Of a DNA stretch of 64,000 nt, positions 43,791-63,901 are shown piece by piece. The first letter of the stretch is position 1; each line of letters begins with the position of its first letter. Source of the stretch: a virus; IMG/VR virus record IMGVR_UViG_3300047548_001261, positions 1 to 64,000 of that record. One strand, given 5' to 3'. A model generated the notes under the pieces. That model searched no databases, was not told where the DNA came from, and saw nothing but the letters and a program-made list of their open reading frames with translations. Made by a program: the position numbers and the translations under genes.

Positions 43791-43809
43791 GTGATGTATT
43801 ATACATCAC
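43791..43809 (-). promoter_or_regulatory. Palindromic operator overlapping the sbcD promoter
   Basis: GTGATGTATTATACATCAC is a 19-bp perfect palindrome. On the minus strand it contains TATAAT. A TTGACA lies 13 bases upstream, too close for the normal spacing; a weaker TTACTT lies at 17. It overlaps the 3' end of the upstream nuclease gene. The same core occurs at 55293-55307 and 63886-63900. Confidence 0.75.
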
Positions 43810-44294
43810 TTTAAAATGTCAAGTAAAGCCGAGATCACCGACGATTCTGCGTTGCCGCTACCGAACGAATCAGCAGCAAGTTTCCGGCACCTGGGGGGCG
43901 CAAGGTACGCCGCAACAATATCCCGCATGTCCCACCACTCGAAGGCCTTAGACTTGTGACTGTAAAATGCCGCTGTTGCAAGGTTGCCTGCACGCATCCA
44001 GAGCCTTGCCCCTTTTATCTGATCTTCAGAAAATACATTCCTAAGTACAGTTTCCCTCAAGCTTTTGTGAATAATGCTTGATTTAACCTCCAACAAAGAC
44101 ACTTTGCCCTGATAAGTGACAATGAAATCGGCGGGCTGGGAAGGTAGAAAATTACCTCCCGTAGCTACCCCTGCCGAAGTAGAATCATAGAGCCGCACAA
44201 ATGTGGCTCTATGCGTTCTCTCGAAGAGAATTAACGCGTCTTGGATTAATCCCTCCGCGCCCTTACCGTCGTTGCGCTTACCTTTTACTTCCAC
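43806..44294 (-). CDS. RecU-like Holliday junction resolvase/PD-(D/E)XK nuclease
   Basis: This 162-residue protein has the nuclease core QPADFIVTYQGKVSLLEVKSS (Asp...Glu-x-Lys), followed by FSEDQIKGARLWMRAGNLATAAFY and a C-terminal helix, a layout close to RecU/penicillin-binding-protein-related factor A. It should cut branched DNA from recombination. The start is GTG with AGGGGG four bases upstream. It overlaps its upstream neighbour by 17 bases. Confidence 0.7.
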   Translation of the reverse strand: MEVKGKRNDGKGAEGLIQDALILFERTHRATFVRLYDSTSAGVATGGNFLPSQPADFIVTYQGKVSLLEVKSSIIHKSLRETVLRNVFSEDQIKGARLWMRAGNLATAAFYSHKSKAFEWWDMRDIVAAYLAPPRCRKLAADSFGSGNAESSVISALLDILK

Positions 44295-45042
44295 AGCTCC
44301 CCCTAAAAATCTTCTCCAGTGAAGGTAGATGTTCTAATAAACCCGCACGGGAGCAACGAGATGTAAACTCATCAATAGAGTCCTCCAAGACGTGTCCACT
44401 TTGGGTCATCGTCTGGAAAACCGATAAGAGTTTATCTTTCGTACCCCCGCCGAAGCCCTCCCCCTCGTCTAAAATGTCAAGGAATCGCTGGATAAAACGC
44501 TGGTTGTATGTGTGCGAGCTCCTCCCCAGCAGAATATGCTCGACCTTTGCCAGGACTCTCCGGAGAACAACTTCGTTTTCATACTGATCCTTACCTAACG
44601 ACATGATGTGCTTAATGAACTCTACTGCATACCCGCTATCGTCAAAGTCAATTAGGGTAGAGTTCGCAAGTCGGCCAGCCTTCTCTCCAGAAACCCTGTA
44701 CTGCGCCCCGTGGCAACCCCTCGCCACCGCACAAGGAAACGTGGACCCGTCCTGCAGCGCAACGTAGGGGGAAAGGTCATGCGCCTCGCACATCGTCCGG
44801 TAAGCTTCCGTAAGGACCTCTGTATAGTGGGCATTGGCCATGAAAGCCTCAACCTCGTCCCCCTCTTTGGCAAGGTTATTGGGGATGTATACATACTCAT
44901 CGGATTCGCCAGAAACAGACCACGCTTTAATATCTGTCACGGCAGGTGGCTTCTTGAACACAGAGTCCCAGATAAGCTTACCGATGGGTGCCATTGCATC
45001 AAAGTCTTCTCCGTCTGTTTTCAGTGTCACTTGCAAACTCAT
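44278..45042 (-). CDS. Unknown protein in the recombination block
   Basis: This 254-residue protein has no motif I recognise. It begins with beta-like segments (LQVTLKTDGEDFDAMAPIG), has a cysteine pair (TFPCAVARGCHG) and a largely helical C-terminal half (YENEVVLRRVLAKVEHILLG). It overlaps both neighbours (4 and 17 bases) in the operon with RecU-like and SbcD genes. A role in recombination or replication is inferred from place only. Confidence 0.6.
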   Translation of the reverse strand: MSLQVTLKTDGEDFDAMAPIGKLIWDSVFKKPPAVTDIKAWSVSGESDEYVYIPNNLAKEGDEVEAFMANAHYTEVLTEAYRTMCEAHDLSPYVALQDGSTFPCAVARGCHGAQYRVSGEKAGRLANSTLIDFDDSGYAVEFIKHIMSLGKDQYENEVVLRRVLAKVEHILLGRSSHTYNQRFIQRFLDILDEGEGFGGGTKDKLLSVFQTMTQSGHVLEDSIDEFTSRCSRAGLLEHLPSLEKIFRGSCGSKR

Positions 45043-45266
45043 GGGGTGCTAGCCTCGTGTTGGTTGGTGTCTAAGCTGTTGTAAAGCCGTCGATCAACCG
45101 AGTAAGAAGCTGGCTTTAACCTACCCTCTTTTTCCTTGGAGTCTCGGACAGTCTCGGCACCGGCGTTACGGGCCTCGGTGTAACAGGCTTGCTCTATGGA
45201 CAGGCCTTTGAGTTTTGTACCATAACGGTTGTAGAAAGTTACTTGGTAGTTGCCCGTGGTAATCAT
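45039..45266 (-). CDS. Small hypothetical protein
   Basis: This 75-residue protein (NYQVTFYNRYGTKLKGLSIEQACYTEARNAGA...) looks like a strand-helix fold with a charged C-terminus. It shares 4-base overlaps with both neighbours, so it is expressed with the dUTPase fusion. Function unknown. Confidence 0.6.
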   Translation of the reverse strand: MITTGNYQVTFYNRYGTKLKGLSIEQACYTEARNAGAETVRDSKEKEGRLKPASYSVDRRLYNSLDTNQHEASTP

Positions 45267-46288
45267 TGTACAAAGTCCCCTGTAGAACCGAACCCATTAT
45301 CACCCCTTTCGGAGTCCTCCAGACTCGCCACCCGTTCATAAAAATCTAAATTAACAGGGATAGTTAGAAGTTGTGCTATTTTTTGACCGATATTTACCTC
45401 GTAAGCCTTATCTCCTAAGTTATATAGATGAACAAGAACCTCTCCCGTATATCCGCTATCAATACACCCGGCTCCGACCTCTATTTTATGCTTTACAGAT
45501 AACCCGCTTCTTGACCAAATTAGGCCGACGAAGCCATCTGGTACATTGATTTTTATCCCTGTCGAGATTATTTGACTACCTCCAGCCAGTATTGTTGTCT
45601 TGACGCAGGATAATATATCGAGACCCGCATCTAATCTGACATTTTTTGTTAACTGGGAACCAGTAGATTGCCCAGAATCCGCTAGCTTACCTTTTGCTGA
45701 CCTAGCAGCATTATGTAAAGCTGTGTGTTCTCCCCTCGTCATAACTTCCAAATTACTTAAGGAATTGTTTAACCTGTTTTCATCGACATGGTGGACGTCA
45801 AACTCTGGATTTAAATACCAACCCCCTTCTATTTCTTGCAGAAACCTGTATTGGTGTGTAGCCCTTAAGTAATGCTCCATAATCAACCTGTGTAGGCGTA
45901 TATCATCGTCGCAAGTCCTATAGGGGTGTGTGTAGTTTTTCACTAAAACGTACCCGTTAGGCCCTACACGAATACCAGACACCCAAGAAGAGTTTTCAGG
46001 GCCTTTTACTCCGAACTGGTGGTTAAGCTCTCCCACCATTCTTTTGCTACGAGCGACCTTACCACAATCATACGAGCAAGTTATGTCACCCGGATTTACA
46101 CGCTTAGCTAAGTGGCTTGGCTTTAAGTGGAAAGGTTTTGCACAAACCGAGCACTGTACGTTGTTAGTCGCCCTGAATCTCACGCCCATACACTCCTTAG
46201 AGCAGCAATGGTGTTTATTATTCTCCATACGCTGTCTGGACAACTCAAAAGGTTTTCCGCAGACTTCGCAGTCAACTATTACTTGCAT
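45263..46288 (-). CDS. HNH endonuclease-dUTPase fusion
   Basis: This 341-residue protein joins two enzymes in one frame. Residues 1-85 have two zinc-finger-like units (CEVCGKPF...CCSKEC, CSVCAKPF...CSYDC). Residues about 125-192 are an HNH nuclease (RLHRLIMEHYL, DVHHVDENRLNNSLSNLEV, GEHTALHN). Residues about 215-337 are a trimeric-type dUTPase with all five motifs: RLDAGLDIL, SRSGLS, GAGCIDSGYTGE (Asp277), GQKIAQ and RGDNGFGSTG. GGAGAGGAAAG precedes the ATG. The dUTPase keeps its catalytic residues; the HNH also looks intact. It probably arose when a homing gene inserted at the start of dut. Confidence 0.88.
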   Translation of the reverse strand: MQVIVDCEVCGKPFELSRQRMENNKHHCCSKECMGVRFRATNNVQCSVCAKPFHLKPSHLAKRVNPGDITCSYDCGKVARSKRMVGELNHQFGVKGPENSSWVSGIRVGPNGYVLVKNYTHPYRTCDDDIRLHRLIMEHYLRATHQYRFLQEIEGGWYLNPEFDVHHVDENRLNNSLSNLEVMTRGEHTALHNAARSAKGKLADSGQSTGSQLTKNVRLDAGLDILSCVKTTILAGGSQIISTGIKINVPDGFVGLIWSRSGLSVKHKIEVGAGCIDSGYTGEVLVHLYNLGDKAYEVNIGQKIAQLLTIPVNLDFYERVASLEDSERGDNGFGSTGDFVQ

Positions 46289-46790
46289 CTTTCCTCTCCA
46301 AAATTGTGTGATATTTTCTTTCAGCTTCTGCCCGAGCAGCTATTGCCGAGGCAGCATCCAAATATGACCCCAGGTAGGTCGGTTCTCCGCACGAAACTAT
46401 TGTGGCGATATACCTGCCCCTAACCTTTTTTACCCCTTTAGGTAACCCTCCCTTGCCTCCTTTCCTGTTCTGCATAACTACAGAAGAAGTTGTGTCGACC
46501 AGATTGTCAGGCAGGTTATTGTCCATATCTTTGTCTCTGTGTGTCACAAGATTTTTCGGCCACTCTCCAGTGTCCCAAAGCACTGCCAATCGGTGTGCGG
46601 CGAAAGGTACGCATCTGATACCGATAATCCGATACCCCGTCTTAGCACATTTAAACCCTGCCGGTAGCCCCGTTTTGGCTCTTCCCTTGGGGTTTATCCA
46701 GTAAAACTTCCCGTCTTCCCTAAGTTCCAGCAACTCTTTAAGCGTGCGTTGAGTGACTAAACTCTGCTTCTTACACGAGGATGTAGACAT
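46272..46790 (-). CDS. HNH homing endonuclease with AP2-like domain
   Basis: This 172-residue protein has LLELREDGKFYW, then AHRLAVLWDTGEWP and VTHRDKDMDNNLPDNL. The usual DH of the first catalytic block reads THR here, so activity may be altered. Residues about 120-160 are AP2-like (GLPKGVKKVRGRYIATI...YLGSYLDAASA). It overlaps the helicase end by 20 bases and the dUTPase fusion start by 17. As a free-standing homing gene it is probably selfish. Confidence 0.8.
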   Translation of the reverse strand: MSTSSCKKQSLVTQRTLKELLELREDGKFYWINPKGRAKTGLPAGFKCAKTGYRIIGIRCVPFAAHRLAVLWDTGEWPKNLVTHRDKDMDNNLPDNLVDTTSSVVMQNRKGGKGGLPKGVKKVRGRYIATIVSCGEPTYLGSYLDAASAIAARAEAERKYHTILERKDASNS

Positions 46791-49151: not shown

Positions 49152-52100
49152 TCAAAACTTCTCCAGGGCTGCATTAACGGTTTCCAAAGACGGGCGATTA
49201 CCTACTTCGTACTGTTTTCCCCACGACGGCCCAAATGAACAGTCGGCCACCATCGGTATCGCCGCCCCAGGAATATCTTGCTCCATGTCGTCACAAATAT
49301 CCTGCAGGAAAGCGTGCAAAGATTTCTTTGGCACATGGAACAACAACTCGTCATAGATCGCTGCGATTAACCGGGCACCATGTTTCTTCAAAGTACCCCT
49401 CTTGTGCATGGTTGCGAACACAACCTTTAAAAGGTCGGCGGCAGTGCCTTGCATCATGAAGTTTGAGAGCTGGCGCTCCATCCGGCTAATCTCGCTACGA
49501 GAACCTTGTGACAACTTACGACCACAATGTCTGCGGCTTCCAAAGGCTGTCTTGACGTAGCCATCGATCCGAGCTTGCTTGTAAAGAGCGTTCTTCCATT
49601 TTTGAATGCCTGGATAGGTTTCATCCATTGCCTTCAAAATCAGTTCAGCGTCTTCCAAATTAATCATCAATTGCATGGAAGTTTTCTGCGCACCGATGGT
49701 GTTAGCCACACCGAAGTTCGCAGTCTTGCCATAAGCCCTACAAGTCTTGATGAACTTTCCTAAAGGTGTGTCATCATCTTGATGCGCCTTGAACCAGTTG
49801 TACTCAGCACGTTTCGGCCCATCCAAAGTAAGCTCTGCAATTTCCATACCCAATCGTTGACAGAATAAAACAGTCAAGCCAGTACCAGTAAGGGCGTGCA
49901 AGTCCAGCGGATCGCCGTCCGCAGGGTATGCAGACATCAGCACGGGGTCTTTACACTCATTGGCCAAGATTCGTAACTCTTGTGAGGCAAAGTCCACTGA
50001 ACAGATGACATGGTCCTCATCATCAGGGATGTATACCTTTCGGACATCTCCCTTGCTTACCTGCAGCGTGTTAGGGTTAGACCCCGTCGGTCTCCTTGTG
50101 ATAGTCCCACAAGAGTTAAACCCTGGATGGATTTTGTCGTTATCATCCATCCACAAGGGATACGGTTTCCAATAGTTAGACAACCTTGTATTCGCGTCCC
50201 GGTAATCAAGCAAGTCCTTCAATACTTGCGCTTTCCAAGGGTGTTCTTCACAATCGTTGGCGATGGCAAACTGCATTGCCGACTCGTCAGTAGACGGGGA
50301 GCCCTCGAAACCGTTCTTATACCGTAAAGATTTTTTATCGGGTTCGGTGCGCACACGGATCGGCAACTCCAGCAATAAATAAAGAAGCGCTTGCATCTGT
50401 TGTGGTGACCCGAAGTTTAACTCTGTGCCTTCCATAACCGAGGGGGTATTGGCTTCGATTACCCCGTTACAAAAGTCTTCCAGAGCTTGGTAAGTGTCAC
50501 CGGCCCTTGCTTTCATTTCTGCAGCTGGCACAGGTGCCAAAATCTTTGCCAACTCAGACGGGTTGTCCTCCACCCAATTGGAGATATTTACCTTTGACAG
50601 AGTCGCTATCGGTCCCAAACCCAAAAGCGCTGCCACATCGTTAAACATTTTCGGTGTAGGTATGAACGGCTTGAAGTGTTTTACATCCTTTGGCTCCTGG
50701 TAAAAACTGAGCTGCAAGAAGTTAGACTTGAACTTGCTTAAGGCAGACTTCACGGCAGATTGGACAGCTTCGCTACTCGTGTCCGACATCTTTTTAACGT
50801 GCTCATTCTTGGCCTTAAACGCAATGTAATCCCGTTGATCGTCCAAGAGAGCTTCTACGGCGTCAAGCCTGGGCTCGGTGCAGTGTTCGTTAAGCGTGGC
50901 ACGGACAGCTGCCATCTTTGCCTTGGTTGTCTCTTCGTCCTTTGCCTTTTGCTTTTCCATTTCGACACGGTCGATTTTGACTCCGTCGATGTGGGCATAC
51001 ATTAGCGGTGCGGTAGCCGCACACTCGTATTGGCTGACAAAATCGTAAGTCTCTTCAAGTTGGGAGAGAATCGCAAAGTACTGGAACAAATGCCCGGTTA
51101 CAAGAGAGTCGTCACAACCGTAGTTGAGGACCTGCTCGCCGGTTATGTCAGCCATTACTGACACGGATGCGTCGGCAATGGCGGCTTCCTGGCTAGGGTT
51201 AAGTCGAGCGTAAAGGGTTTTCAGTACCGAGTTAACCGCAGAGTAGCTTTCCTGTTTAGACAGGGTTTTTAAGGGCTTGCTAACATCGCCGCCTGCAAAT
51301 AGGGGTGGGAGAATGCTTTCTAACTGTCTTGGCAAAGTTCCTTTTAGTTTTAGTGGTCGGAGAAAATCGTTAACCCACAGTTGTATAGGGGTAAACTCTC
51401 CCATAGGGAAAGACAACTTGGTTCCGAACTTTCCATACTCTTCATTAATGAACGCAATCCAATCTTCACCGCCTATGATACCGTCATAGTAATTATGAAA
51501 CTTCTCCTCTAAGTCTTCCCTAAACTCCTCAACCCAGGCGAGCTTCTTTTCATCCTCAGAAACAAGGATAGTGAACTCTATGCTTTTACCCGCCCTTAAC
51601 AACCCCAGCAAATTTTCCTGCTCTGCGCCGGCCAAAGTATCCGTATAAGAGGCCTGAGAGTAATTCAAATAGCTTTTTGACAAAGCCTTCAGGCCATTTT
51701 CGGTGTTCTCGTCGATGTGGTGGGCAAACAACTTAGTGTCGAACCAGGATTTCAACTCGTGCCCGAAAACATTTCTTGTAATGGTAGCCTCAAAATTTAC
51801 GTTTTGAGCGCACATGGGTTTATCCCTACGCTCAATATCCAAAATCATGGATAACACTTCGTCCTGAGAAACGTTATCAGTACCCTTGTGGTCAACAGAG
51901 AAATAGAACACATGGTTCAAGTTGGCCCCGAAAGCAAAAGAGCACCCCGTAACCGAGGAGTCCAACATCGACACAAAATCCCTGCCATTGCACGCGGCAA
52001 CGTAATTAGGGTTCTTGACCTTATCCGTCGACTCATAATCCCAGGGAACAATCGGTGTCTCAGGCAATAACTTGGCGATCTCAGCTAAACTCGTTTCCAG

Positions 52101-53057
52101 ATTCCCTTGTGTAACCAAAGTCGCCCGGTAGCAAAAACCCTCGTACTTGCCAACTAAATCCAGGCATCCCGCCTCAGACAAAACCGATGTAAGCCTCTCT
52201 ATTGTCGGCGCCCGCTTTACCCACTCCAAGGGGTTTTTCGGTGTCACACAGATTTCCGGCGCCAGTTTGGCGACCTTGTACATCAGGTTCCAGGTTGAGT
52301 ACTCGTCGACACATTTGATGAATGGCTTGATTGCGTTATGTTTTACGGCTTCTTTCAGCGCTTTCAGATCGCTGTTGGCGATCATGCCGTCGATCTGTTC
52401 CATTCCGTCAAGGCCAAACGCATCGACCATCTTGGTCCAAGCAGATTCTCCGAGGCCTTTAACACCAATATAACCATCAGACGTGTCGCCGACAATGGAC
52501 TTGAACAGCGTAATCAGATTTGGCGGCACACCCTTCATGCTTGTCGTCAGGGCATTTTGATACATAACAAACGTATCAGGTAGCCCAGCCAACGCGAGGA
52601 TGTCCTGGTCTTTCGTGTAAATAACTTTGTTGCCCTTAAGCCCTTTGGCAAGATAAGCGATGATGTCGTCGGCTTCCTGGTTTGGTAACCGAACCAGAAA
52701 CGCACCTTGTGCAACCAAGAATTTTTTAACAAGCTCAAGACACTTGGCAAGTTGTTCACGCTCAATAGGGTCCTCGGTAGCTTTCTTTTTCTCACGCCCG
52801 GACTTGTACTCGGGCAATAACGATTTGCGGTACACATTGCCGTCGTCTAGGCAGGCAATGATGTTCATTGGGGCATCAACCACCTTCAAGACTTCGTCGT
52901 AGTACATCTTCAAGAAAGTAGTGAAGCCGAAAGTGGCGGTATTAATTTTGGGTTTAACATCGCCCTGGATGGGTTCTGGGGTCATGCTTGCATGAAATGT
53001 GTGGGAGACCACGCCTTTCAGGTCGAGGATCGCCCATTTAAAATCTGGGTCTTTCAT
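49152..53057 (-). CDS. DNA polymerase I-like: 5' nuclease, 3'-5' exonuclease and polymerase in one chain
   Basis: This 1301-residue enzyme is probably the phage replicase. Residues 1-290 are FEN-like (YRKSLLPEYKSGR, QEADDIIAYL, YTKDQDILAL, VGDTSDGYIGVKGLG). Residues about 335-520 are a DEDDy exonuclease (WDYESTD, CAQNVNFEATITR, SWFDTKLFAHHIDE). Residues about 680-1300 are PolA: motif A SVDFASQELRIL near 1020, motif B TCRAYGKTANFG near 1110, and motif C AAIYDELLFHV near 1236, with Tyr where most have His. Phages usually split off the 5' nuclease, so the three-in-one form is notable. The start at ATG 53057 follows AAGGAAAATT. Confidence 0.92.
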   Translation of the reverse strand: MKDPDFKWAILDLKGVVSHTFHASMTPEPIQGDVKPKINTATFGFTTFLKMYYDEVLKVVDAPMNIIACLDDGNVYRKSLLPEYKSGREKKKATEDPIEREQLAKCLELVKKFLVAQGAFLVRLPNQEADDIIAYLAKGLKGNKVIYTKDQDILALAGLPDTFVMYQNALTTSMKGVPPNLITLFKSIVGDTSDGYIGVKGLGESAWTKMVDAFGLDGMEQIDGMIANSDLKALKEAVKHNAIKPFIKCVDEYSTWNLMYKVAKLAPEICVTPKNPLEWVKRAPTIERLTSVLSEAGCLDLVGKYEGFCYRATLVTQGNLETSLAEIAKLLPETPIVPWDYESTDKVKNPNYVAACNGRDFVSMLDSSVTGCSFAFGANLNHVFYFSVDHKGTDNVSQDEVLSMILDIERRDKPMCAQNVNFEATITRNVFGHELKSWFDTKLFAHHIDENTENGLKALSKSYLNYSQASYTDTLAGAEQENLLGLLRAGKSIEFTILVSEDEKKLAWVEEFREDLEEKFHNYYDGIIGGEDWIAFINEEYGKFGTKLSFPMGEFTPIQLWVNDFLRPLKLKGTLPRQLESILPPLFAGGDVSKPLKTLSKQESYSAVNSVLKTLYARLNPSQEAAIADASVSVMADITGEQVLNYGCDDSLVTGHLFQYFAILSQLEETYDFVSQYECAATAPLMYAHIDGVKIDRVEMEKQKAKDEETTKAKMAAVRATLNEHCTEPRLDAVEALLDDQRDYIAFKAKNEHVKKMSDTSSEAVQSAVKSALSKFKSNFLQLSFYQEPKDVKHFKPFIPTPKMFNDVAALLGLGPIATLSKVNISNWVEDNPSELAKILAPVPAAEMKARAGDTYQALEDFCNGVIEANTPSVMEGTELNFGSPQQMQALLYLLLELPIRVRTEPDKKSLRYKNGFEGSPSTDESAMQFAIANDCEEHPWKAQVLKDLLDYRDANTRLSNYWKPYPLWMDDNDKIHPGFNSCGTITRRPTGSNPNTLQVSKGDVRKVYIPDDEDHVICSVDFASQELRILANECKDPVLMSAYPADGDPLDLHALTGTGLTVLFCQRLGMEIAELTLDGPKRAEYNWFKAHQDDDTPLGKFIKTCRAYGKTANFGVANTIGAQKTSMQLMINLEDAELILKAMDETYPGIQKWKNALYKQARIDGYVKTAFGSRRHCGRKLSQGSRSEISRMERQLSNFMMQGTAADLLKVVFATMHKRGTLKKHGARLIAAIYDELLFHVPKKSLHAFLQDICDDMEQDIPGAAIPMVADCSFGPSWGKQYEVGNRPSLETVNAALEKF

Positions 53058-54716: not shown

Positions 54717-54728
54717 GATATTTACCTC

Positions 54729-54746
54729 GATTGTGATTGTGATTGT
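54729..54746. repeat. (GATTGT)3 short tandem repeat
   Basis: Three copies of GATTGT plus a partial fourth lie just upstream of the 54716 start codon, beside its ribosome site. Slippage here could change 5' leader length. Confidence 0.9.
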
Positions 54747-54764
54747 GATTTTTGGAACTTACGT

Positions 54765-54804
54765 TTCAATCCGCTCCCGGCGGTTGGGACGGGAGCGGAT
54801 TGAA
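54765..54804 (-). terminator. Strong hairpin after the HU gene
   Basis: TTCAATCCGCTCCCG (54765-54779) pairs perfectly with 54790-54804 across a 10-base loop, directly after the HU stop codon. On the minus strand no T-run follows, so it may pause transcription or protect the 3' end rather than be a canonical terminator. Confidence 0.7.
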
Positions 54805-55077
54805 CTACAGCAAGGCACCCTTAAACGCCTTGCCCGCTGTAATCTTTGGCACCCGTTTGGCCGGGCTGTGGTAGGGCTTCCCGTTTAGCGGGTTGTTCCC
54901 ACTTCTTTCTGGTTTTGTTACCGAGTCGAACTTGGCGAAACCTGGGATGAGGACTTCGCCGCCATTTTTAACTTCCTCCTGGATTGCATCGATAAACAAC
55001 CCCAGCGCGTTACCAAGGGCCCTACTTGTCAGTGGCGATTTCTCAGCCACCTTTGCTATCAACTCTGTTCTATTCAT
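54805..55077 (-). CDS. HU-family DNA-bending protein
   Basis: This 90-residue protein starts MNRTELIAKVAEKSPLTSRALGNAL and has GEVLIPGFAKFDSVTKPERSGNNPLNGKPYHSPAKRVPKITAGKAFK, the classic HU/IHF fold with the flexible arm around RSGNNPLNGK. It bends DNA non-specifically and may help replication or packaging. ATG 55077 is preferred over an upstream in-frame GTG because of AGGTGAA spacing. It overlaps the end of the ribbon-helix-helix gene by 8 bases. Confidence 0.93.
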   Translation of the reverse strand: MNRTELIAKVAEKSPLTSRALGNALGLFIDAIQEEVKNGGEVLIPGFAKFDSVTKPERSGNNPLNGKPYHSPAKRVPKITAGKAFKGALL

Positions 55078-55264
55078 TTTCACCTACCTTAGTTACGGCG
55101 GACCACCCGCCTTGTTTATACCGTTGCACTTGTGTAACGACCATTGCTGCAAAGATTTCGCTGATCGAGCGTTGTTCTGCCCCAGCGATCTCTTTAACTT
55201 CTTCATATACAAGCGGGTCACATCGAAACCCCGCCTGAATCTTGCTTACTTTATCCTCGGCCAT
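55070..55264 (-). CDS. Ribbon-helix-helix regulator
   Basis: This 64-residue protein reads KIQAGFRCDPLVYEEVKEIAGAEQRSISEIFAAMVV, the strand-helix-helix pattern of CopG/Arc repressors. AAGAGGGCGTC precedes the ATG. A sigma70 promoter with a palindromic operator over its -10 lies 30-60 bases upstream, consistent with autoregulation. It is the best candidate to bind the three GATGTA-N3-TACATC sites in this window; that link is inferred. Confidence 0.85.
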   Translation of the reverse strand: MAEDKVSKIQAGFRCDPLVYEEVKEIAGAEQRSISEIFAAMVVTQVQRYKQGGWSAVTKVGENE

Positions 55265-55292: not shown

Positions 55293-55327
55293 GATGTATT
55301 ATACATCGCTTTATGGTGCTGGGTCAA
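55293..55327 (-). promoter_or_regulatory. Promoter with palindromic operator for the ribbon-helix-helix/HU genes
   Basis: On the minus strand, -35 TTGACC (55327-55322) and a perfect -10 TATAAT (55303-55298) are 18 bases apart. The perfect 15-bp palindrome GATGTATTATACATC (55293-55307) covers the -10 entirely, so a bound repressor would block polymerase. The -35 lies in the end of the upstream gene. Confidence 0.85.
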
Positions 55328-55778: not shown

Positions 55779-57186
55779 TGGAAAATATCTCCGTAGTTAA
55801 GTTATCCACAAAGGACGAGTTGTCCTTCATTATTTGTTTCAATTCTTTTGCTCTTGCCATAGCTTTCCCAAATAGGCGGGTACTTGATGTAAACGCAAAG
55901 CGGAATACCCATGCCACTACAGGGTGCTTCTGCCCTTGCCTTTGTACACGCCCTAAAGCTTGCTCAAAATCCCCTGGTGAGCCTGTGGGCTCGTAGAAAA
56001 TCATGTGGTGACAATTTTCCTGTAGATTAAAGCCCGCCCCGCCCGACCTGTAGTTCATGATCGCCATTGTGCAAGTATCGTCGTTCAAGAACTTGTCTAC
56101 GTTAGCCGGCACGTTGCTGCCTCCGTAAACTAAGGCAGGATTTCTGCCTTTGAATATTTGTGCAAGACTCTCTACGGTCTTCCGGTAATGGCAGAAAATA
56201 ACCACCTTACCTTCAATAGACCCGACGATCTGCTTCAGGTTATCTAAGGGTTCATTATCGATTTTTTCAAGAGTAAATGCCCCGATGTTGGTCACCAATT
56301 GCAGAGCCATCTGTCGCAAGGATTGCTGATTCCTTGCGACAATCAATTCCTCCCCGTATTCCAACATCCTTTCTAACAAAAGTTGCTGATACAGGTTCTG
56401 GTGGGCGTCATCCAGCAAGACATGGTGATCGATTATCGTGGGCGCTTCCAAGGATAATACATCTTCTTGCCGTCGGCGTACCGCTCTGTAATTCAGATTC
56501 TCACTTAGCAAATCAAGTTGTTTATACCCGGCAATCTGATCCTTCATGAACGGAATGTAGTCAACATGAATCCGGTCGAATTGCGCAAGGTCAACGTAGG
56601 CTTCTCGCTTTTTCAATCGGATGTGCCCATAAGCCGACCTCAGCTCTGTGGGGCAAGGCGTGGCTGTCATAGATAGTAAGTCCATGTCCTGCATGTAGAC
56701 CGCCCTATACATCTCTTGGAAAGCTTGGGAGCTAGCATTTGCCATCATGTGGGACTCGTCGGCGACGATCGATTTGTAGCGCCCGTGTTTCCTTATTTCC
56801 GCGCCGTGCTTCACAAATAGTTGGTAGGACATCATTAACACGTCTGCCCAAACTCCCCCTAACATCAACGCCTTACGCTTGGCAGGGTCTTTATCAAGTC
56901 TTGCACAAGTAAACTCGTGCCCAACAATTTGCTGCTCAAAATTCATCATATACTGAGTCAGCAAAGGAGGGGGCATGACGACTATAACCTTCTTGCCGGA
57001 GTAGAGTTTATCCATGATCCAAAGATAAGAGATTAGGGATTTACCTGTTCCAACATCCGAGAAATTATTCGACCGGCGCCAGTCCAGGTGCTTCTGTAAA
57101 TCCTCCCGTTGATAGGGTTTGGGTGTTAGGGTAACTTCCACCTCGTCGGGAATTTTAGGGTTAGATAGGATTTGATTAAGTCTCAT
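55744..57186 (-). CDS. SNF2-family helicase
   Basis: This 480-residue helicase has motif I SDVGTGKSL near 43-51, Ia VVMPPPLL, II VADESHMM near 143, III SMTATP, IV KVVIFCHYRKTV, V NYRSGGAGFNLQ and VI QALGRVQRQGQ. It is a short SNF2-type ATPase of the sort common in phage replication modules, probably remodelling DNA-protein complexes or forks. Its ATG overlaps the methyltransferase stop (ATGA). Confidence 0.92.
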   Translation of the reverse strand: MRLNQILSNPKIPDEVEVTLTPKPYQREDLQKHLDWRRSNNFSDVGTGKSLISYLWIMDKLYSGKKVIVVMPPPLLTQYMMNFEQQIVGHEFTCARLDKDPAKRKALMLGGVWADVLMMSYQLFVKHGAEIRKHGRYKSIVADESHMMANASSQAFQEMYRAVYMQDMDLLSMTATPCPTELRSAYGHIRLKKREAYVDLAQFDRIHVDYIPFMKDQIAGYKQLDLLSENLNYRAVRRRQEDVLSLEAPTIIDHHVLLDDAHQNLYQQLLLERMLEYGEELIVARNQQSLRQMALQLVTNIGAFTLEKIDNEPLDNLKQIVGSIEGKVVIFCHYRKTVESLAQIFKGRNPALVYGGSNVPANVDKFLNDDTCTMAIMNYRSGGAGFNLQENCHHMIFYEPTGSPGDFEQALGRVQRQGQKHPVVAWVFRFAFTSSTRLFGKAMARAKELKQIMKDNSSFVDNLTTEIFSNVPEIVSTQDD

Positions 57187-58379
57187 ACATTCATAAATGC
57201 TTTAATAAATTGCGCGGCCACTTGTGGGACTATGGCGTTGCCGTAACCCTTCAATCTCATAACCCGCGCTTCTTGCGTGTTTTCACAGTCAATTTCAAGT
57301 GCTTCTGTGTTTCTATCGTTGCTTGGCACCACTCGACGGGGAACCCCATCAACCAGCGGCTTAACGCCGGGTTTAATTGGCCTCCATTTGTCATCCCTGC
57401 AATAGAGCCATTCTGGATTAGTCCATTCTGTATTAATCCATTCGGATACAAGTGCGGGTGTACCTGCTCCCTTAAGTTCGCTGGAGATGTTCGCCCTGGC
57501 CTCTCTGCTGTAAATTGCCGACGCATCGCTTCCTGACCCCTCGCTGGGAGGTCGTCCATTGTGTTCGGTGTTGCCCATCCTGCTAATGTCGCCTGTTGGC
57601 TCAATGGAATCCCGGTATCCTGTGACCTCGGTAAACTCCCGCCCCTGCTGTGATCCTGCGCCATTGGGGTACACCGCCCCACTACATGAGCCACCCCCTC
57701 TAAATTGATCCCGTGATTCCCTGCCATTACTTGTGGCGAGTTGTGATTCGCCCCTCCCGTACCCGTTTTCGGTGTTGGATACCCTGCCAACTGTGCCGCT
57801 ACATCCAACGTATCCCTTGACAGCTTCCCGTTCCGTATCCTGCCACCCTGATAGCCGCCCCTGTGATCCCTTGTTGTTGCTGTCGGCCACCCAGTAAAGC
57901 CTTTGTCTGATATGGGGTGCGCCCGCGCCTGCTGCTGTAAGTACAATCGACCCGACGGCGTAGTTTTCCCGCTCCATTTCAAAGCATAAATCATCGAGCC
58001 AGCCGTGTTTGATGGCGGCAGGAACTTGTTCTCCAAAAATTGTTCTGAAATTGCATTGCTTAACAAGTTCGATAAAGTGCGGCAAGAGGTGTCGTTCATC
58101 GTCTTTTCCTTTCCCTGCTCCGGCAACACTAAAAGGTTGGCAGGGGAGGCTTGCGGTGCAGACTGGCTTATCGTCTGCCCAGCCCGCAAGTCTAAGGGCA
58201 TAAGACCATCCGCCAATGCCGGCAAAGAAGTGGTGCTGGGTGTACCTTCTGATGTCACTTGCCTCAACTTCTGTAATACTTCGCTCATCTACATCCCCGT
58301 CGGCAATCAAGCCGTTTTTAATTAATTGCCTAAGCCACGCTGCGGCTTTAGGGTCGTATTCATTGTAATAAGCGCTCAT
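57183..58379 (-). CDS. C5 cytosine DNA methyltransferase (overprinted gene)
   Basis: This 398-residue enzyme has motif I HHFFAGIGGWSYALRL (near 50), IV SLPCQPFSVAG (Cys about 80), VI-like GEQVPAAIKHG, VIII IRQRLYWVAD and X GYGNAIVPQVAAQFI. Between VIII and IX lies about 150 residues of poorly conserved, Gly/Ser/Asn-rich sequence with recurring segments (VADSNN, VSNTENG, LATSNG, MGNTEHNG). A second long gene (57257-58288) is encoded in another frame over this region. ATG 58379 overlaps the upstream stop. It is probably a self-protecting methylase; no endonuclease partner is seen. Confidence 0.88.
   Translation of the reverse strand: MSAYYNEYDPKAAAWLRQLIKNGLIADGDVDERSITEVEASDIRRYTQHHFFAGIGGWSYALRLAGWADDKPVCTASLPCQPFSVAGAGKGKDDERHLLPHFIELVKQCNFRTIFGEQVPAAIKHGWLDDLCFEMERENYAVGSIVLTAAGAGAPHIRQRLYWVADSNNKGSQGRLSGWQDTEREAVKGYVGCSGTVGRVSNTENGYGRGESQLATSNGRESRDQFRGGGSCSGAVYPNGAGSQQGREFTEVTGYRDSIEPTGDISRMGNTEHNGRPPSEGSGSDASAIYSREARANISSELKGAGTPALVSEWINTEWTNPEWLYCRDDKWRPIKPGVKPLVDGVPRRVVPSNDRNTEALEIDCENTQEARVMRLKGYGNAIVPQVAAQFIKAFMNV
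57257..58288 (-). CDS. Overlapping-frame protein with GWPT/GWAT repeats
   Basis: This 343-residue frame lies wholly inside the methyltransferase gene. Its ATG (58288) has GGGGATGTAG upstream. It reads as a coherent protein: an N-terminal Pro/Leu-rich region, GSMIYALKWSGKTTPSGRLYLQQQARA, then spaced repeats containing GWPTATTRD, GYPTPKTGTG and GWATPNTMD, ending LSRWLMGFPVEWCQ. Proteins of this pattern are found overlapping phage cytosine methylases elsewhere, which argues that both frames are translated. The function is unknown. Confidence 0.75.
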   Translation of the reverse strand: MSEVLQKLRQVTSEGTPSTTSLPALADGLMPLDLRAGQTISQSAPQASPANLLVLPEQGKEKTMNDTSCRTLSNLLSNAISEQFLENKFLPPSNTAGSMIYALKWSGKTTPSGRLYLQQQARAHPISDKGFTGWPTATTRDHRGGYQGGRIRNGKLSRDTLDVAAQLAGYPTPKTGTGGANHNSPQVMAGNHGINLEGVAHVVGRCTPMAQDHSRGGSLPRSQDTGIPLSQQATLAGWATPNTMDDLPARGQEAMRRQFTAERPGRTSPANLREQVHPHLYPNGLIQNGLIQNGSIAGMTNGGQLNPALSRWLMGFPVEWCQATIETQKHLKLTVKTRKKRGL

Positions 58380-58702
58380 CAATGCAAAACCCCTTTCTCC
58401 GGCCCTTCCATAACTGCCAACCTCGTCTGCACATACTTTAAAAATGCCTTCAATATAGGCTCACTCGGCTGGTCGTCAGCTTGTAAGGTTACCGCAGAAC
58501 ATTTCGGGCACGGGCAAGTTGGTACTAATCTGAACAATTGTGGCTTACCTTCTTCTAGCATACTGAAGGAAAACGCCGGCTGACCGCCAGCTAAACTATC
58601 GGCGATCTGTAACAGAAGGGTGATGTCGGCGACGTCTACCGGCTCTTGAAGCACGCTGGAGAAATGACCTGCTAAAAATTGTTTTTCTATTTTTGGGTTC
58701 AT
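58379..58702 (-). CDS. Hypothetical protein with CPCPKC motif
   Basis: This 107-residue protein has a helical N-terminus (VADITLLLQIADSLAGGQ) and TCPCPKCSAVTL, a possible metal site, near the middle. It shares ATGA with the methyltransferase start and overlaps its upstream neighbour by 4 bases, within one operon. Family not recognised. Confidence 0.65.
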   Translation of the reverse strand: MNPKIEKQFLAGHFSSVLQEPVDVADITLLLQIADSLAGGQPAFSFSMLEEGKPQLFRLVPTCPCPKCSAVTLQADDQPSEPILKAFLKYVQTRLAVMEGPEKGVLH

Positions 58703-58932
58703 AGTGTGGCCTTTAGGTATTTTTCAAGTTCTTCCAGAGCTTGCTCCGGGGATTCGAACCCGTTTTTATGTTTGGTAAACGTGGCAACATGGAAGTTAAA
58801 AATTCCCTTCTCCCCGGGCACGGCTATGTACCACACCCAACACTCTTTGTTATTCATCGCACGCTCGATGTAAAAATAAGCGCCAGGTTTTATGTCTTGA
58901 TCAACTCTGTATTTTATAGGTATTAATTTCAT
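58699..58932 (-). CDS. Small hypothetical protein
   Basis: This 77-residue protein (YRVDQDIKPGAYFYIERAM...WVWYIAVPGEKGIFNFHVATF...) looks like a compact beta-rich fold with a helical end. It overlaps the primase-helicase stop and the next gene by 4 bases each. Function unknown. Confidence 0.62.
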   Translation of the reverse strand: MKLIPIKYRVDQDIKPGAYFYIERAMNNKECWVWYIAVPGEKGIFNFHVATFTKHKNGFESPEQALEELEKYLKATL

Positions 58933-61763
58933 AAAAACGCCTGCACAGGAATACTCTTCTCCTGCAAAATGTTGATATCTAGTGCCAGTATAGTCCGCCC
59001 AGCTGTTGGGAGCAGCCTTGACAAAGCCGTGTCGGATATGAAGTAACTCATCCCCTTAACTGCGTTTAGGAATGCCTGCTCTGTCTTTATCTTCAACGGA
59101 TCGGAGCTTCCGGATTTATATCTGCTTAACATGGGCCACGTCATCATTGTGTCGATGTACAACACACCATCCTCGGCCACGAAGTGAATACCCTTATCAA
59201 TCCCCCACTGGACGTTGTCCTTGCCAGAGTAAAGCGCCATGACCGCAAAATCTCTAACGACCTTATCGACTTCTGTGACGCTAGAGGATTTAGCAATCTG
59301 TGCCGAGGAGCTCTCCATATAGTCATAAAACTTCTCGCGCATCTGGCACAAAGCGTTGTAATTCTCTGCGGAGAACCCGGACTCCTGCGAGCCTAAAACA
59401 CTGATCGCCCAATCGTAAGCAACAAGAATGCACTTGTATCCAAACCTAAGCCGCTCATTAATGTCCCGTACATCCATAGATACCGGCATCTTCGCCCGCT
59501 GAAGCATTTCCCCGATAGCCTTGACGGGTGTTTGAAGAGCGCCGTGAACTAGCTTTGGTGCGAACTCCGCGAGTGCATCGGCTTTGGGTTCCAGTTCTGT
59601 GAAAACGTCAAACCCGTAATCGTGCCCGGCTGCTGTCATGTTTACCATGATTGCCCTGTGGTGAATCGCTGGAACATCAACCATTTCTTCAGAGAGTGTA
59701 CAAATGGGGGCAGAAATTCTCCAGGATACAGTTGAGACATTTGCCCCGTTACGGTCGCCGCCACCCAACCGACCCTTAGATATAACTTGGGAATCAAATG
59801 CACCTTTCAAGATTTCTATAATATCCGTATAGTGCTTTTGGGTTGTACACGACTTCGGATTAAGCTCGTTTATAATTCGGGGGATCGTCGTAGACTCAGA
59901 GACCCCTTGTTGAAATGGCAGCTTTGTAGAGTTAGGTGCCTCCAGTGTCGATAATGCCGCCTCCCCCTCTAACCCGGATAGGCGCATTAAAACCCCTGTC
60001 AAAGCATTTTTGCCCGTGCCGGCAACCCCAGATATACAAAGCAAGGGAAACCGCTTGGATACTTGGTAGATATGGGTCTTCAAATGCGCAGCTAAAAACC
60101 AGCCTAGCACAGGTGATATTGCCTCAACAGTGTTGCACTTGAGTAACAAGCTAAACGCATGGTTAGCCTCCGCCGAGATTGGGTTATACCAGTCTTTTTG
60201 GCTAAGCCTTGGCGCAACTACAGATTCATTGCCCTTGAATAAAAGGGTGTCGTAAACGCCAACATTGTTGACGCTAAATCCTGGCTCGATATAGGTGAGC
60301 CTGCCTGAGTGCCCTGGAGACATGACGTCTTCAGGTCCAGTTCTTTTCCTGTAGTGTATTCCTACTGATGATGCCGCTATCACGATGTTTATCTCCGATG
60401 ATGCTTGTAGTTCCCCTAAAGAAATTGTGTGCCTAATCCTGGTGACATCGTCATCGGTGCCCACAAAGGCTGCCCCGTCAATTCCAGATATTTCCTTCTT
60501 GAATTGACTCTTAGACGTCCAGGCACTTTCATCAAAATCTTTTATGGTGTGTGTGCTTGCTCTGCTTGGTATCGCCAAGCTGACGGTCGATGCCAAGCAT
60601 TTCCCGTCTAATTCGTCCATGATTATAGACTCTCTCTCCATGGTAAAAGTGGACACGACATGGGTGTGATCCTGGTCTGTATACCATTGCCCGCTATGCT
60701 CAAAAAGCAACAGAGTTTCTAAGGACTGGGTCGTAGCTACCATAGCTTTTACTGGGCATCCCTCACACGGCTTAACCGAAATTGTGTTAAGAATTGACCC
60801 ACAGATAAACTTATTTTTATCTAAGTTTCCTGCCGCATACCCGTGGAAGGCAAGTAATAGCGTCTTTCTTTTTTGGCTCGATACGCCCTTCCTGGAAGGG
60901 CAGGCATCTACAATGCGGGCATGTACCGACTCCAATTGGTCTTTAGGGACGTCAGCCCTGGCCGACCAACAGCCGACATTGTACGCAATCTGATTAAAAG
61001 ACGCTGCCGAACCTCTCTTACCCTCCATTAGCGCAGTCACACATGCCGGCACAATCCCGCCAAAGATGCCTGTGTCAGTGACTGCTTTGGCTGTCTTGAA
61101 TTTACTTTCAAGCTTGGCATGTTCCTTGTACTCTTTCTTGACTTGGTCAAAAAGGTTCGCAAGGACTTGGCTTTTGGTGTTAGGTCCAGAGAAAGTTTCC
61201 TGTCCCCTAGGGGATTTAACCATTTCCCGGTAACCGTCAACAGTCAATGCCTGGAGCTCCTCGAAGGTAACGATAACTTTGTACTTTTTGTCCGGACGTA
61301 AGCTATCAGGTGGCCTGACCATCCGCCCCCTGCCGTTCGAGTAAACCTGCTGGTCGAGACCCGTAACATACAGCTTCAAAGCCAGCATACGGTACAGGTC
61401 GGGCAGGTTCTTTTCAGGCTTCCCTGTTGAGAAAATATTCATGTTGATGAAAACGTGAATACCTTTTGCCCCGGATAAATGGATTTCTAAATCGTCTTCC
61501 TCAACACCAATACTTGTCAATTTCTTACAGAGCTGCACGCCGGACTCCAGTGCTACTGATAAGTCCGTGTGGTCGATATCGAAGAACAGTGGACCTTGAT
61601 ACGTCATCGACTCGGGCCCAGCAATCTCTGGATCGGAGTTCAGAGCCAGGATTGTTATCCTTGAAGCTTCGTGCTGTCTTGCAAAATTCCATAGGTTGTG
61701 AGGGTCTTTATCGGTAGATGTTACCCATTCCCCGAAATCGCCTCTTTGATAGCAGCGAAACAT
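58929..61763 (-). CDS. Primase-helicase (AEP-like primase with AAA+ C-terminus)
   Basis: This 944-residue protein has an AEP-type primase in residues 50 to about 200: LFFDIDHTD, then LSGAKGIHVFINMN and RMVRPPDSLRPDKKYK. A cysteine-containing segment (CEGCPV) lies near 340, perhaps a metal site. The C-terminal half has Walker A ISGVAGTGKNALTG near 580 and a Walker B-like RIINELNPKS. It would start and unwind the phage replication fork. AAGGAAATCAGT precedes the ATG. Confidence 0.85.
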   Translation of the reverse strand: MFRCYQRGDFGEWVTSTDKDPHNLWNFARQHEASRITILALNSDPEIAGPESMTYQGPLFFDIDHTDLSVALESGVQLCKKLTSIGVEEDDLEIHLSGAKGIHVFINMNIFSTGKPEKNLPDLYRMLALKLYVTGLDQQVYSNGRGRMVRPPDSLRPDKKYKVIVTFEELQALTVDGYREMVKSPRGQETFSGPNTKSQVLANLFDQVKKEYKEHAKLESKFKTAKAVTDTGIFGGIVPACVTALMEGKRGSAASFNQIAYNVGCWSARADVPKDQLESVHARIVDACPSRKGVSSQKRKTLLLAFHGYAAGNLDKNKFICGSILNTISVKPCEGCPVKAMVATTQSLETLLLFEHSGQWYTDQDHTHVVSTFTMERESIIMDELDGKCLASTVSLAIPSRASTHTIKDFDESAWTSKSQFKKEISGIDGAAFVGTDDDVTRIRHTISLGELQASSEINIVIAASSVGIHYRKRTGPEDVMSPGHSGRLTYIEPGFSVNNVGVYDTLLFKGNESVVAPRLSQKDWYNPISAEANHAFSLLLKCNTVEAISPVLGWFLAAHLKTHIYQVSKRFPLLCISGVAGTGKNALTGVLMRLSGLEGEAALSTLEAPNSTKLPFQQGVSESTTIPRIINELNPKSCTTQKHYTDIIEILKGAFDSQVISKGRLGGGDRNGANVSTVSWRISAPICTLSEEMVDVPAIHHRAIMVNMTAAGHDYGFDVFTELEPKADALAEFAPKLVHGALQTPVKAIGEMLQRAKMPVSMDVRDINERLRFGYKCILVAYDWAISVLGSQESGFSAENYNALCQMREKFYDYMESSSAQIAKSSSVTEVDKVVRDFAVMALYSGKDNVQWGIDKGIHFVAEDGVLYIDTMMTWPMLSRYKSGSSDPLKIKTEQAFLNAVKGMSYFISDTALSRLLPTAGRTILALDINILQEKSIPVQAFL

Positions 61764-61778
61764 ACTGATTTCCTTATA

Positions 61779-61976
61779 TTATATTTTAATTGCAGTTGCT
61801 AGCTTTACCGTAGCCTTGCCCTGTCTCGCTATTCGGATGGCGGCCTCTAAGTCTGAAATAACTTCAGGGTCAGTGGCAGACTTCAGCGCCTTTTTAGCCT
61901 CGGTAACCGTTAGGCTGGCGCGCAATTTGCCGTTAAGTCTTGCTCCGCCCAGAGGGAAGGCTATAATTTCTGGCAT
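61779..61976 (-). CDS. Small hypothetical protein
   Basis: This 65-residue, basic helical protein (LTVTEAKKALKSATDPEVISDLEAAIRIARQG) lies 15 bases upstream of the primase-helicase. AGGCCACAAAC precedes the ATG. No family recognised. Confidence 0.6.
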   Translation of the reverse strand: MPEIIAFPLGGARLNGKLRASLTVTEAKKALKSATDPEVISDLEAAIRIARQGKATVKLATAIKI

Positions 61977-62004
61977 GTTTGTGGCCTGTGAGTGTACAAG
62001 TCCT

Positions 62005-62343
62005 TCATAAACCCGCCTTTAATTCCTCGATAGCCGCCTTGGCCGCTTCCGTCCGCCCCAAAATCACCTCTGCAATCGCCAATGCTTTAGTGTCAGAAAG
62101 TTTATTGGCTTCGACAAAATCTTCAATATCAATCGGCGGGTACTGAATCTCCAATAAATCCAACTCATGAAGGCACTTCTCCAAATCCTCCAATCCTTTG
62201 CCTGTCGGTTTATCGAACCGGCAAAGACGTTTAACTATGCACCCTTGCAAGAAACCTAACGCCCCGCCCTCGATAAACTCAACAGGTTGAATAGCAAACC
62301 CCTTGTAATGGCTGCCGCCAATTTGTACATTCAAAGCACTCAT
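62005..62343 (-). CDS. DUF3310-like protein
   Basis: This 112-residue protein starts MSALNVQIGGSHYKGFAIQPVEFIEGGALGFLQGCIVKRLCRF, the DUF3310 pattern (GGxHY...IQPxEF...G...K...R) found in many phages and sometimes labelled a nucleotide kinase on weak evidence. The C-terminus is helical and acidic. Its ATG overlaps the upstream stop. Its role is unknown. Confidence 0.82.
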   Translation of the reverse strand: MSALNVQIGGSHYKGFAIQPVEFIEGGALGFLQGCIVKRLCRFDKPTGKGLEDLEKCLHELDLLEIQYPPIDIEDFVEANKLSDTKALAIAEVILGRTEAAKAAIEELKAGL

Positions 62344-62522
62344 AAAACCACCCTCAGATTATTATCTTTCAACACATTACCGGAAATAATTCCGGACTTA
62401 ATTTTTTCTTCTAACTCAGATTGTTTAACCACAACCCCCAATCCATAAGGGTGAACCTCATAAATCAGCGTCGCTGCGTCTAAGATGTAGCCCTCCGCTA
62501 TAAATAAGCTTGCGTCGTTCAT
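62340..62522 (-). CDS. Small hypothetical protein
   Basis: This 60-residue protein (MNDASLFIAEGYILDAATLIYEV...) follows GAGAGAAGAAT, a good ribosome site. It overlaps the end of the upstream gene by 65 bases in another frame and shares ATGA with the DUF3310-like gene. The overlap is long, but both frames look coding. Confidence 0.55.
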   Translation of the reverse strand: MNDASLFIAEGYILDAATLIYEVHPYGLGVVVKQSELEEKIKSGIISGNVLKDNNLRVVL

Positions 62523-62763
62523 ATTCTTCTCTCACTTGTTTTGATGGGACCCACAGGGTGTGCCCACGCCGGTATTTCCGGGCATATGTCGGATTATGGG
62601 CAATAGCAAACCCTACCCCTGGAGGGGTGTCCACCTCGTTAATAAACACTTTGAAAACAAGCCAATCAATATTGGCGTTTTTCATAAAATCTTTGGAATT
62701 TATAAGAATTTCCCAAGCAATTTTGGCGCTCAGGACGACGTCGTTAGGGCTGTTCTCCACCAT
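62458..62763 (-). CDS. Hypothetical protein
   Basis: This 101-residue protein (KIAWEILINSKDFMKNANIDWLVFKVFINEVD...) has an alpha/beta pattern and a basic end (REEYERRKL). Its 3' end overlaps a downstream gene by 65 bases; its start overlaps the upstream gene by 20. No family recognised. Confidence 0.6.
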   Translation of the reverse strand: MVENSPNDVVLSAKIAWEILINSKDFMKNANIDWLVFKVFINEVDTPPGVGFAIAHNPTYARKYRRGHTLWVPSKQVREEYERRKLIYSGGLHLRRSDADL

Positions 62764-63268
62764 CGATTACTCCCACGACTTCGACATAATACCCTTGGAC
62801 AACTTCCCTTGTCGCCGTGTTGATAAGGGAAATTTGCTGGCGAGCGCACCGTAGATTATTCTTGGCAGTTATGTTACAAAGTACGCCTTTTATAACACTG
62901 TGTATTTCTCCGTCGTTGGCCCCGCAAGAAAATATCCAACCTTGGCCAACTCCAAGTTGCCTGAAAATATTTGCGGACCGGTGTTGCCAACCACTTGGGT
63001 TACGCCTTCCACCTTTTTGTATACCGCCTGGGGTAGAAGGCAAAAAGGGTGCTGGTAAGTCAGGGTTTCTTTTCTCCAATGTGACTTTACAAATGTCCCA
63101 ATTAACCCGCGAACCCTTGGGTTCACAAGAGACTGCGATAAAGTTTTGTACTGATAAGCGCTCGTAGGTGTTGACAAATTTCTGAGCCATGTCGCCAGGG
63201 CAGAAAAAGCTGTCCCCTTCTTTAAAAACCTCGCTGGGGTCGATCACCCCTAAATTTTTTAAATCCAC
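62744..63268 (-). CDS. Hypothetical protein
   Basis: This 174-residue protein has an acidic N-terminus (VIDPSEVFKEGDSFFCPGDM), a Gly/Arg-rich middle (GGIQKGGRRNPSGWQHRS) and a beta-rich end (REVVQGYYVEVVGVIDGG). It abuts the upstream gene with no gap. No family recognised. Confidence 0.6.
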   Translation of the reverse strand: MDLKNLGVIDPSEVFKEGDSFFCPGDMAQKFVNTYERLSVQNFIAVSCEPKGSRVNWDICKVTLEKRNPDLPAPFLPSTPGGIQKGGRRNPSGWQHRSANIFRQLGVGQGWIFSCGANDGEIHSVIKGVLCNITAKNNLRCARQQISLINTATREVVQGYYVEVVGVIDGGEQP

Positions 63269-63850
63269 TCACACCACCTTAAATACTTCAAAATTATAGA
63301 TTCGGTCGGGGACTCTTACGAGGTCCCCGACCGCTGGAAAAAGCTTTTTAAATAGCTCGTCTTCGTTATTAATGTCTTCGCAGGCAGTAATGTCAGCTTT
63401 GACTGCCGCAACCTTCATTGCCTCTATTGCAGATAAGAACGGGGGAGATTTAATCTCTACTGTACCAGACCCTTGGCTGCCTCCACCTACATCCCAAAAC
63501 CTAACGGTAGTAATTAACTTCCTTGTGGTTACCCGCTTCCGATAGTAAATATTCTTTGGGGGTCGCTCCTGAATCTTCAGGTCGAAAACCTTTACCAAGT
63601 TACCATCAAAGTTGGCGATGCCGACGTAATGGTCGAGGGTTATCAGCCCTGGGGTATCCTTTCCGTTCTCAACAGCCTTTTTACTGCTGAATTTAAGGTG
63701 AACCCTCTGGGACTGCTCTGCATCTGTAAATCCGTCGAACCACTGCAAAGCTTGCTTTGCCCCCTCCGGGTAGGGGTTGTCCCAAGAGTGTGCCCTGCCT
63801 TCCTTACATGCCAATTGGCCTTGTAGGTAGTATTGCCCACGGTTTCGCAT
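63269..63850 (-). CDS. Protein with N-terminal Rmf/CrpP-like motif
   Basis: This 193-residue protein starts at ATG 63850 (TAGGGGGTGTA upstream), not at an ATG seven codons earlier. Residues 3-42 read GQYYLQGQLACKEGRAHSWDNPYPEG...WFDGF, like the small Rmf/CrpP family (G-x-x-A...NPYP...W-x-x-G). The rest is alpha/beta with IQERPPKNIYYRKRVTTRKL and no known domain. The motif suggests RNA or ribosome contact; this is inference. Confidence 0.6.
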   Translation of the reverse strand: MRNRGQYYLQGQLACKEGRAHSWDNPYPEGAKQALQWFDGFTDAEQSQRVHLKFSSKKAVENGKDTPGLITLDHYVGIANFDGNLVKVFDLKIQERPPKNIYYRKRVTTRKLITTVRFWDVGGGSQGSGTVEIKSPPFLSAIEAMKVAAVKADITACEDINNEDELFKKLFPAVGDLVRVPDRIYNFEVFKVV

Positions 63851-63884
63851 TACACCCCCTAAAATGTGCATGTTACATATATTT

Positions 63885-63901
63885 TGATGTAATGTACATC
63901 A
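63885..63901 (-). promoter_or_regulatory. Third copy of the GATGTA-N3-TACATC palindrome
   Basis: TGATGTAATGTACATCA has perfect 7-bp arms around a 3-base centre. It lies about 35 bases before the start of the 63269-63850 gene. A TACATT hexamer here could act as a weak -10. It overlaps the stop of the upstream gene, like the other two sites. Confidence 0.65.

Follow-up and report, generated by a model that had tools for sequence, protein, structure and literature searches.

Does a palindrome that recurs in the replication module of a ~82-kb phage mark the operators of one phage regulator, and if it does, which protein would bind it? The window analyzed here is the first 64 kb of the phage record, which has a total length of 81,895 bp.

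Three copies of one palindrome and predicted promoters

Perfect copies of GATGTA-N3-TACATC were found three times in the window, at 43793–43807 (site 1), 55293–55307 (site 2) and 63886–63900 (site 3). The same three positions had been given by an earlier sequence-only reading of this DNA, and scans of both the window and the record bore them out exactly. That reading had also proposed a genome-wide search for the motif; across the 81,895 bp, this search returned exactly these three copies and no others, with none scattered in coding DNA, and allowing one mismatch added no further copy in the record. From base composition, the number of exact copies expected by chance was ~0.006. Palindrome families were defined by 6-bp arms that were not of low complexity (at least three base types in the arm), a spacer of 0–10 and at least three copies. 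One family, that of GATGTA, was observed under this definition vs. none in 150 dinucleotide-preserving shuffles. The rarity of the word together with the null shuffles indicates that the family is real and not a product of chance.

The operator-like palindrome reads GATGTATTATACATC at sites 1 and 2 and GATGTAATGTACATC at site 3, with GATGTAT-N-ATACATC common to the first two. Site 1 is the core of a longer perfect palindrome of 19 bp, GTGATGTAT-T-ATACATCAC (43791–43809). Each copy had been described as sitting at a gene boundary, and all three indeed fall in noncoding gaps, which by our gene calls make up only ~8% of the sequence between 38 and 64 kb; at sites 1 and 3 the final 2 bp of the palindrome fall in the stop codon of the gene before. 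All three lie between genes of the same (minus) strand, 29–36 bp upstream of a start codon: site 1 is 31 bp before the start of an sbcD-like gene at 43762, site 2 is 29 bp before that of a putative ribbon-helix-helix (RHH) gene at 55264, and site 3 is 36 bp before a start at 63850. The last is most likely the true start of its gene because a GGGGG ribosome site stands just upstream. The three sites lie within the replication module, at spacings of ~11.5 and 8.6 kb. TATAAT occurs in two of the three, as previously noticed, and it does so on the minus strand, which is the strand of the genes (sites 1 and 2); site 3 is without it.

Sigma-70-like promoters were predicted on the minus strand at two sites, with the −10 hexamer inside the palindrome in both cases. 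The site 1 promoter is TTTACT-18-TATAAT (10/12; 43798–43827) and the site 2 promoter is TTGACC-18-TATAAT (11/12; 55298–55327). The latter was the best minus-strand candidate between 44.5 and 64 kb, and the former was one of two top minus-strand candidates from 36 to 44.5 kb, the other (39816–39843; 10/12) lying outside any copy of the palindrome. The recurrent operator-like word overlaps the predicted promoters of both the putative RHH gene and sbcD, and the claim that it covers the −10 of the RHH gene's promoter held, in that the TATAAT of the predicted 11/12 promoter falls inside site 2. Since the palindrome at these two sites covers the −10 and reaches about to the transcription start, expected near 43791 at site 1 and 55291 at site 2, a protein bound there should exclude polymerase. 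No good sigma-70 promoter could be placed at site 3, where the top candidates scored 8/12, one of them with a −35-like TGTACA inside the palindrome.

Six perfect (12/12) promoters of the form TTGACA-17/18-TATAAT were located on the minus strand of the right arm, at record positions 66129–66158, 68985–69014, 71504–71533, 73746–73774, 74995–75023 and 79187–79215. They share an extended sequence, TTGACATAC...TATAATATA(A)CCTA, and form a family of near-identical promoters, presumed to be early. The GATGTA palindrome was present in none of the six. Its occurrence at two near-consensus promoters of the replication module and at none of the right arm indicates that it marks the former and not the strong, presumed-early promoters. 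As a separate observation, a 12-bp palindrome, TCCCCTAGGGGA, occurs three times in the record (positions 61203, 74703 and 78230), perhaps because its AGGGGA acts as a ribosome site.

Gene blocks behind the sites and a candidate repressor

Nearly all genes from 38.5 kb to the right end are on the minus strand, and close gene packing suggests that the blocks behind the three sites are operons. Site 3 heads a block running from 63.85 to 55.3 kb with unassigned genes, a primase, a methyltransferase and a helicase. Its first gene (63269–63850, minus) encodes a 193-aa protein without an assigned function, for which we obtained no Pfam match and no convincing PHROG or NCBIfam match; the primase-like protein is encoded at 58929–61763 (minus; PHROG 16345, E = 3.4e-57). 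The module contains two DNA methyltransferase genes, at 57183–58382 (minus) and at 38537–39481 (minus), the second a C5-cytosine methylase by Pfam.

Behind site 2, the block from 55.26 to 43.8 kb encodes the putative RHH protein, an HU-like protein, thymidylate synthase, DNA polymerase, ligase, helicase and dUTPase. The first gene (55070–55264, minus) encodes the candidate repressor. The second (54805–55077, minus) encodes an HU/IHF-like DNA-binding protein (PHROG 379, E = 3.2e-26; Pfam Bac_DNA_binding), which NCBIfam HU/IHF models match below their cut-off, and a DNA polymerase I-like protein is encoded further along (49152–53057, minus; Pfam DNA_pol_A, E = 4e-55). The stretch after the HU-like gene (54727–54803) holds a GC-rich hairpin, ATCCGCTCCCG...CGGGAGCGGAT, followed by minus-strand AATCACAATCACAATCACAATC direct repeats and weak promoter-like sites; this region might partly separate the RHH and HU-like genes from the downstream polymerase genes. 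Within the same block, a 341-aa frame (45263–46288, minus) joins an HNH_3 nuclease-like part (residues 162–189) to a dUTPase domain (residues 213–337), and a separate HNH_3 gene adjoins it at 46272–46790. The frame is possibly a homing-endonuclease fusion or insertion.

Site 1 heads the block from 43.76 kb leftwards, with SbcD- and SbcC-like genes. The first encodes an sbcD-like metallophosphoesterase (42734–43762, minus; Pfam Metallophos, E = 6.5e-8; NCBIfam sbcd, E = 3.1e-8, below the cut-off of that model) and the next an sbcC-like AAA ATPase (40711–42744, minus; Pfam AAA_15 and AAA_23).

The frame behind site 2 translates to 64 aa, the length given in the sequence-only reading. Three profile libraries each pointed weakly, and below threshold, to RHH families for this protein: Pfam RHH_1 (15.4 bits against a cut-off of 20.5, E = 0.018), an Arc-like PHROG (E = 0.098) and NCBIfam RelB/ParD (E = 0.061). 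When the whole record was searched, it was the only RHH_1 match (15.2 bits, under the cut-off, E = 0.0023). A single-sequence model of its domain (residues 6–53) gave an extended N-terminus, at low confidence, and two helices, with the predicted strand residues around Q10, G12 and R14. Nearly all of the top 30 Foldseek matches of this model were RHH domains (PutA, CdbA, CopA(SO), Arc, CopG and AmrZ), each with E of at least 0.6 (0.6–2 for the top RHH matches) and individually not significant, and VIA-align gave middling Z scores of 5–6 over 42–48 residues against the same group. The consistency of family among the fold matches, not the size of Z, is the point in favor of an RHH fold. In the AlphaFold model of the whole 64-aa protein the N-terminus was helical, and no informative match to a known fold was obtained. 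Two further comparisons were discarded: a pairwise alignment to CopG, whose top score was in the wrong register, and a hand-made RHH profile used with hhalign, which lacked discrimination in that a different small phage protein scored higher. Judged from the profiles and the model, the 64-aa protein is a probable, not a proven, member of the RHH family.

Many autogenous repressors are encoded by the gene that comes first behind one of their own sites. Pfam searches of 69 small and medium phage proteins recognized no HTH or other sequence-specific repressor family besides the RHH match, although an HU-like protein and AP2 and HNH domains were present. A lambda-type immunity region, in which divergent promoters go with a CI/Cro-like HTH pair, was considered and set aside, given the absence of HTH families from this Pfam survey and the position of the sites between same-strand genes. 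A type II toxin-antitoxin reading was likewise dropped because no toxin gene follows the RHH gene, the next gene being HU/IHF-like. Its upstream neighbors encode a 72–77-aa protein without a family match and a 77-aa protein.

We consider it reasonably probable that a single phage repressor uses all three palindromes as operators, in an autogenous feedback or shut-off circuit over three operons, and that this repressor is most likely the 64-aa RHH protein. The sequence-only reading had this protein repress itself, sbcDC and the gene at 63850 to time replication genes. What stands of that model are the identical operators before three replication-module blocks, the −10 overlap at two of them, the sole recognized regulator behind one, and the fold support for an RHH domain; repression at site 3, with a promoter of 8/12 at best, is less certain. 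A small regulon is the best-supported reading of the three sites; the identity of the binder, the direction of regulation, the extent of each operon and the timing are inferred.

Other readings of the sites

The main rival is another regulator acting at the same sites, either a host transcription factor or an unrecognized phage protein, with the RHH gene merely one of its targets. We hold this to be unlikely, with several points in its favor: the RHH assignment is sub-threshold by sequence, many phage proteins belong to no family, and a host regulator is conceivable. Against these stand the lack of any other specific regulator among the 69 proteins surveyed and the place of the RHH gene, first behind one of only three sites. 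The exact site also matches no described regulator site in open-access full text.

It is quite improbable that the sites serve an activator, or a promoter-choice switch, that turns the replication blocks on. Site 3, where no good promoter could be placed, might depend on an activator, and the −35 hexamer of the site 1 promoter, TTTACT, is weak while in register with its −10. A protein bound over the −10, as at sites 1 and 2, would normally block polymerase, however, and the 11/12 promoter at site 2 should need no help.

Folding was considered for a further reading, in which the palindromes are hairpins in leader RNAs, acting in processing, translation control or weak termination. The RNA of site 1 folds well (−9.0 kcal/mol, z −4.8) and transcripts reading through from upstream genes would carry the hairpins, but folding is weak at sites 2 and 3 (−4.7 and −5.6 kcal/mol) and the stems are not followed by a T run. 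A block transcript that depends on a −10 within the palindrome would start near the palindrome's end and lack the hairpin, and it is the sequence itself, not just a stem, that is kept in three copies. We find this reading very unlikely.

The likelihood that the palindromes serve in cis as sites of DNA replication, segregation or packaging, and not of transcription, appears slight indeed. Their location in the replication module and their spacing of ~11.5 and 8.6 kb would suit such sites, and related Vibrio phages carry a different, many-copy palindrome with some copies inside genes. Here there are just three copies, all 29–36 bp before a start codon and two centered on a −10, and no iteron cluster of the GATGTA word occurs anywhere. 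Chance, in the form of TATAAT with randomly mirroring flanks, is hardly credible: TATAAT does give a partly symmetric A/T center at two sites, but site 3 is without it, the GATG/CATC arms lie outside the −10, six consensus promoters elsewhere do not carry the word, and neither the expectation nor the shuffles allow three copies.

Relatives, known systems and a putative circuit

The nearest sequenced phages were of the Vibrio SHOU24/K120 type, together with Pseudomonas PMBT3, Lana and UAntarctica, at ~24–38% protein identity. In the collections searched, which may omit records near the window's own, the RHH protein had no convincing match among viral contigs, genome contigs, phages and plasmids, a polymerase query found only SHOU24 among viral contigs, and no phage or plasmid matched the region at the DNA level. 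The exact 19-bp palindrome was absent from viral contigs. Neither the RHH protein nor the palindrome was found in 15 IMG/VR records of related phages, of which some are fragments and nine have an SbcD-like match, and PMBT3, Lana and UAntarctica showed no recurrent palindrome of this kind. One relative, G013, contains a weak RHH-like frame with no GATGTA site nearby. The presence of gene and sites together here, and their joint absence from relatives, fits joint acquisition, as a single event and thus weak evidence.

A different 15-bp palindrome, TTGGTCT-N-AGACCAA, was observed in the Vibrio phages K120, SHOU24 and K449 at 7–12 copies per 44 kb, with ~25 further copies in the left 33 kb of K120. 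Most copies are at gene boundaries, and some lie inside sbcD and sbcC at matching positions in divergent phages. The word was absent from the Pseudomonas relatives and from the phage studied here, and was not found in the literature searched. It is apparently a genome-wide element, either protein-binding or RNA, not yet described.

Among known systems, Arc and Mnt of Salmonella phage P22 are phage RHH proteins of 50–80 aa with operators in phage promoters. Arc was among the top fold matches of the 64-aa protein's domain, and an Arc-like PHROG was a weak sequence match. P22 is temperate, and its two proteins act on ant within immI through a different operator; here the targets would be blocks of the replication module, and we recognized no immunity region. 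CopG of plasmid pMV158 is an RHH autorepressor of a replication operon, with an operator overlapping the promoter, and VIA-align related the domain to it (2cpg) with a Z of 5.2. CopG differs in serving plasmid copy control from one operator with another half-site, compared with three operators in a phage.

A close functional parallel is SvtR of the archaeal virus SIRV1, a 6.6-kDa RHH protein that is an autorepressor and has three additional binding sites in the viral genome (PMC5569661). The circuit predicted here would likewise pair a small, probable RHH protein with its own gene and a few other viral sites. SvtR, however, works on archaeal transcription, its binding site is an imperfect inverted repeat of another sequence, and it acts mainly on a structural gene whose promoter elements lie ~80 nt from the site (PMC5569661). 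The palindromes here are perfect and are placed on the −10 and before replication genes; the parallel is functional and homology is not claimed. RelB of E. coli, another RHH autorepressor, recognizes a hexad core [A/T]TGT[A/C]A and, at its promoter, protects the stretch from −10 to +17 (PMC2812701). This core resembles the ATGTA of the half-site described here, and RelB/ParD was a weak NCBIfam match. RelB works with a toxin gene and has four hexads in a bipartite site (PMC2812701), unlike the present arrangement, in which an HU-like gene and no toxin gene follows and each site has two half-sites.

RHH proteins read DNA as dimers, through a two-stranded sheet. In the proposed circuit, the protein would occupy the pair of GATGTA half-sites in this form and, at sites 1 and 2, lie over both the −10 hexamer and the region of the start, so blocking the host sigma-70 RNA polymerase and repressing its own block (RHH, HU-like, thymidylate synthase, polymerase and more) and the sbcDC block. 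The block starting at 63850 may be repressed by the same mechanism or by one involving a nearby promoter, and the right-arm consensus promoters, having no operator, would escape. Because no repressor would be present when the phage enters, the replication blocks should fire first in an initial burst, and feedback damping or shut-off would be expected as the protein accumulates.

Such a circuit would probably be an ordinary kind of phage switch, of the sort known from the viral RHH repressors Arc, Mnt and SvtR, newly seen in this phage group. More tentatively, one lineage of ~80-kb tailed phages may have gained an orphan RHH repressor with its operators. Once accumulated, this repressor would shut down the entire replication and recombination module, with its primase-helicase, polymerase and SbcDC, and so serve as a self-limiting timer; one 64-aa protein and three identical sites would then make up a compact early-to-late switch. 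For the little-studied ~80-kb tailed phages, the locus offers a candidate control circuit whose parts, one protein and three short DNA sites, are defined. If true, one lineage would have its replication module controlled by a small RHH repressor, with neither the protein nor the sites in its relatives, and this would bear on the gain and replacement of timing circuits in phages.
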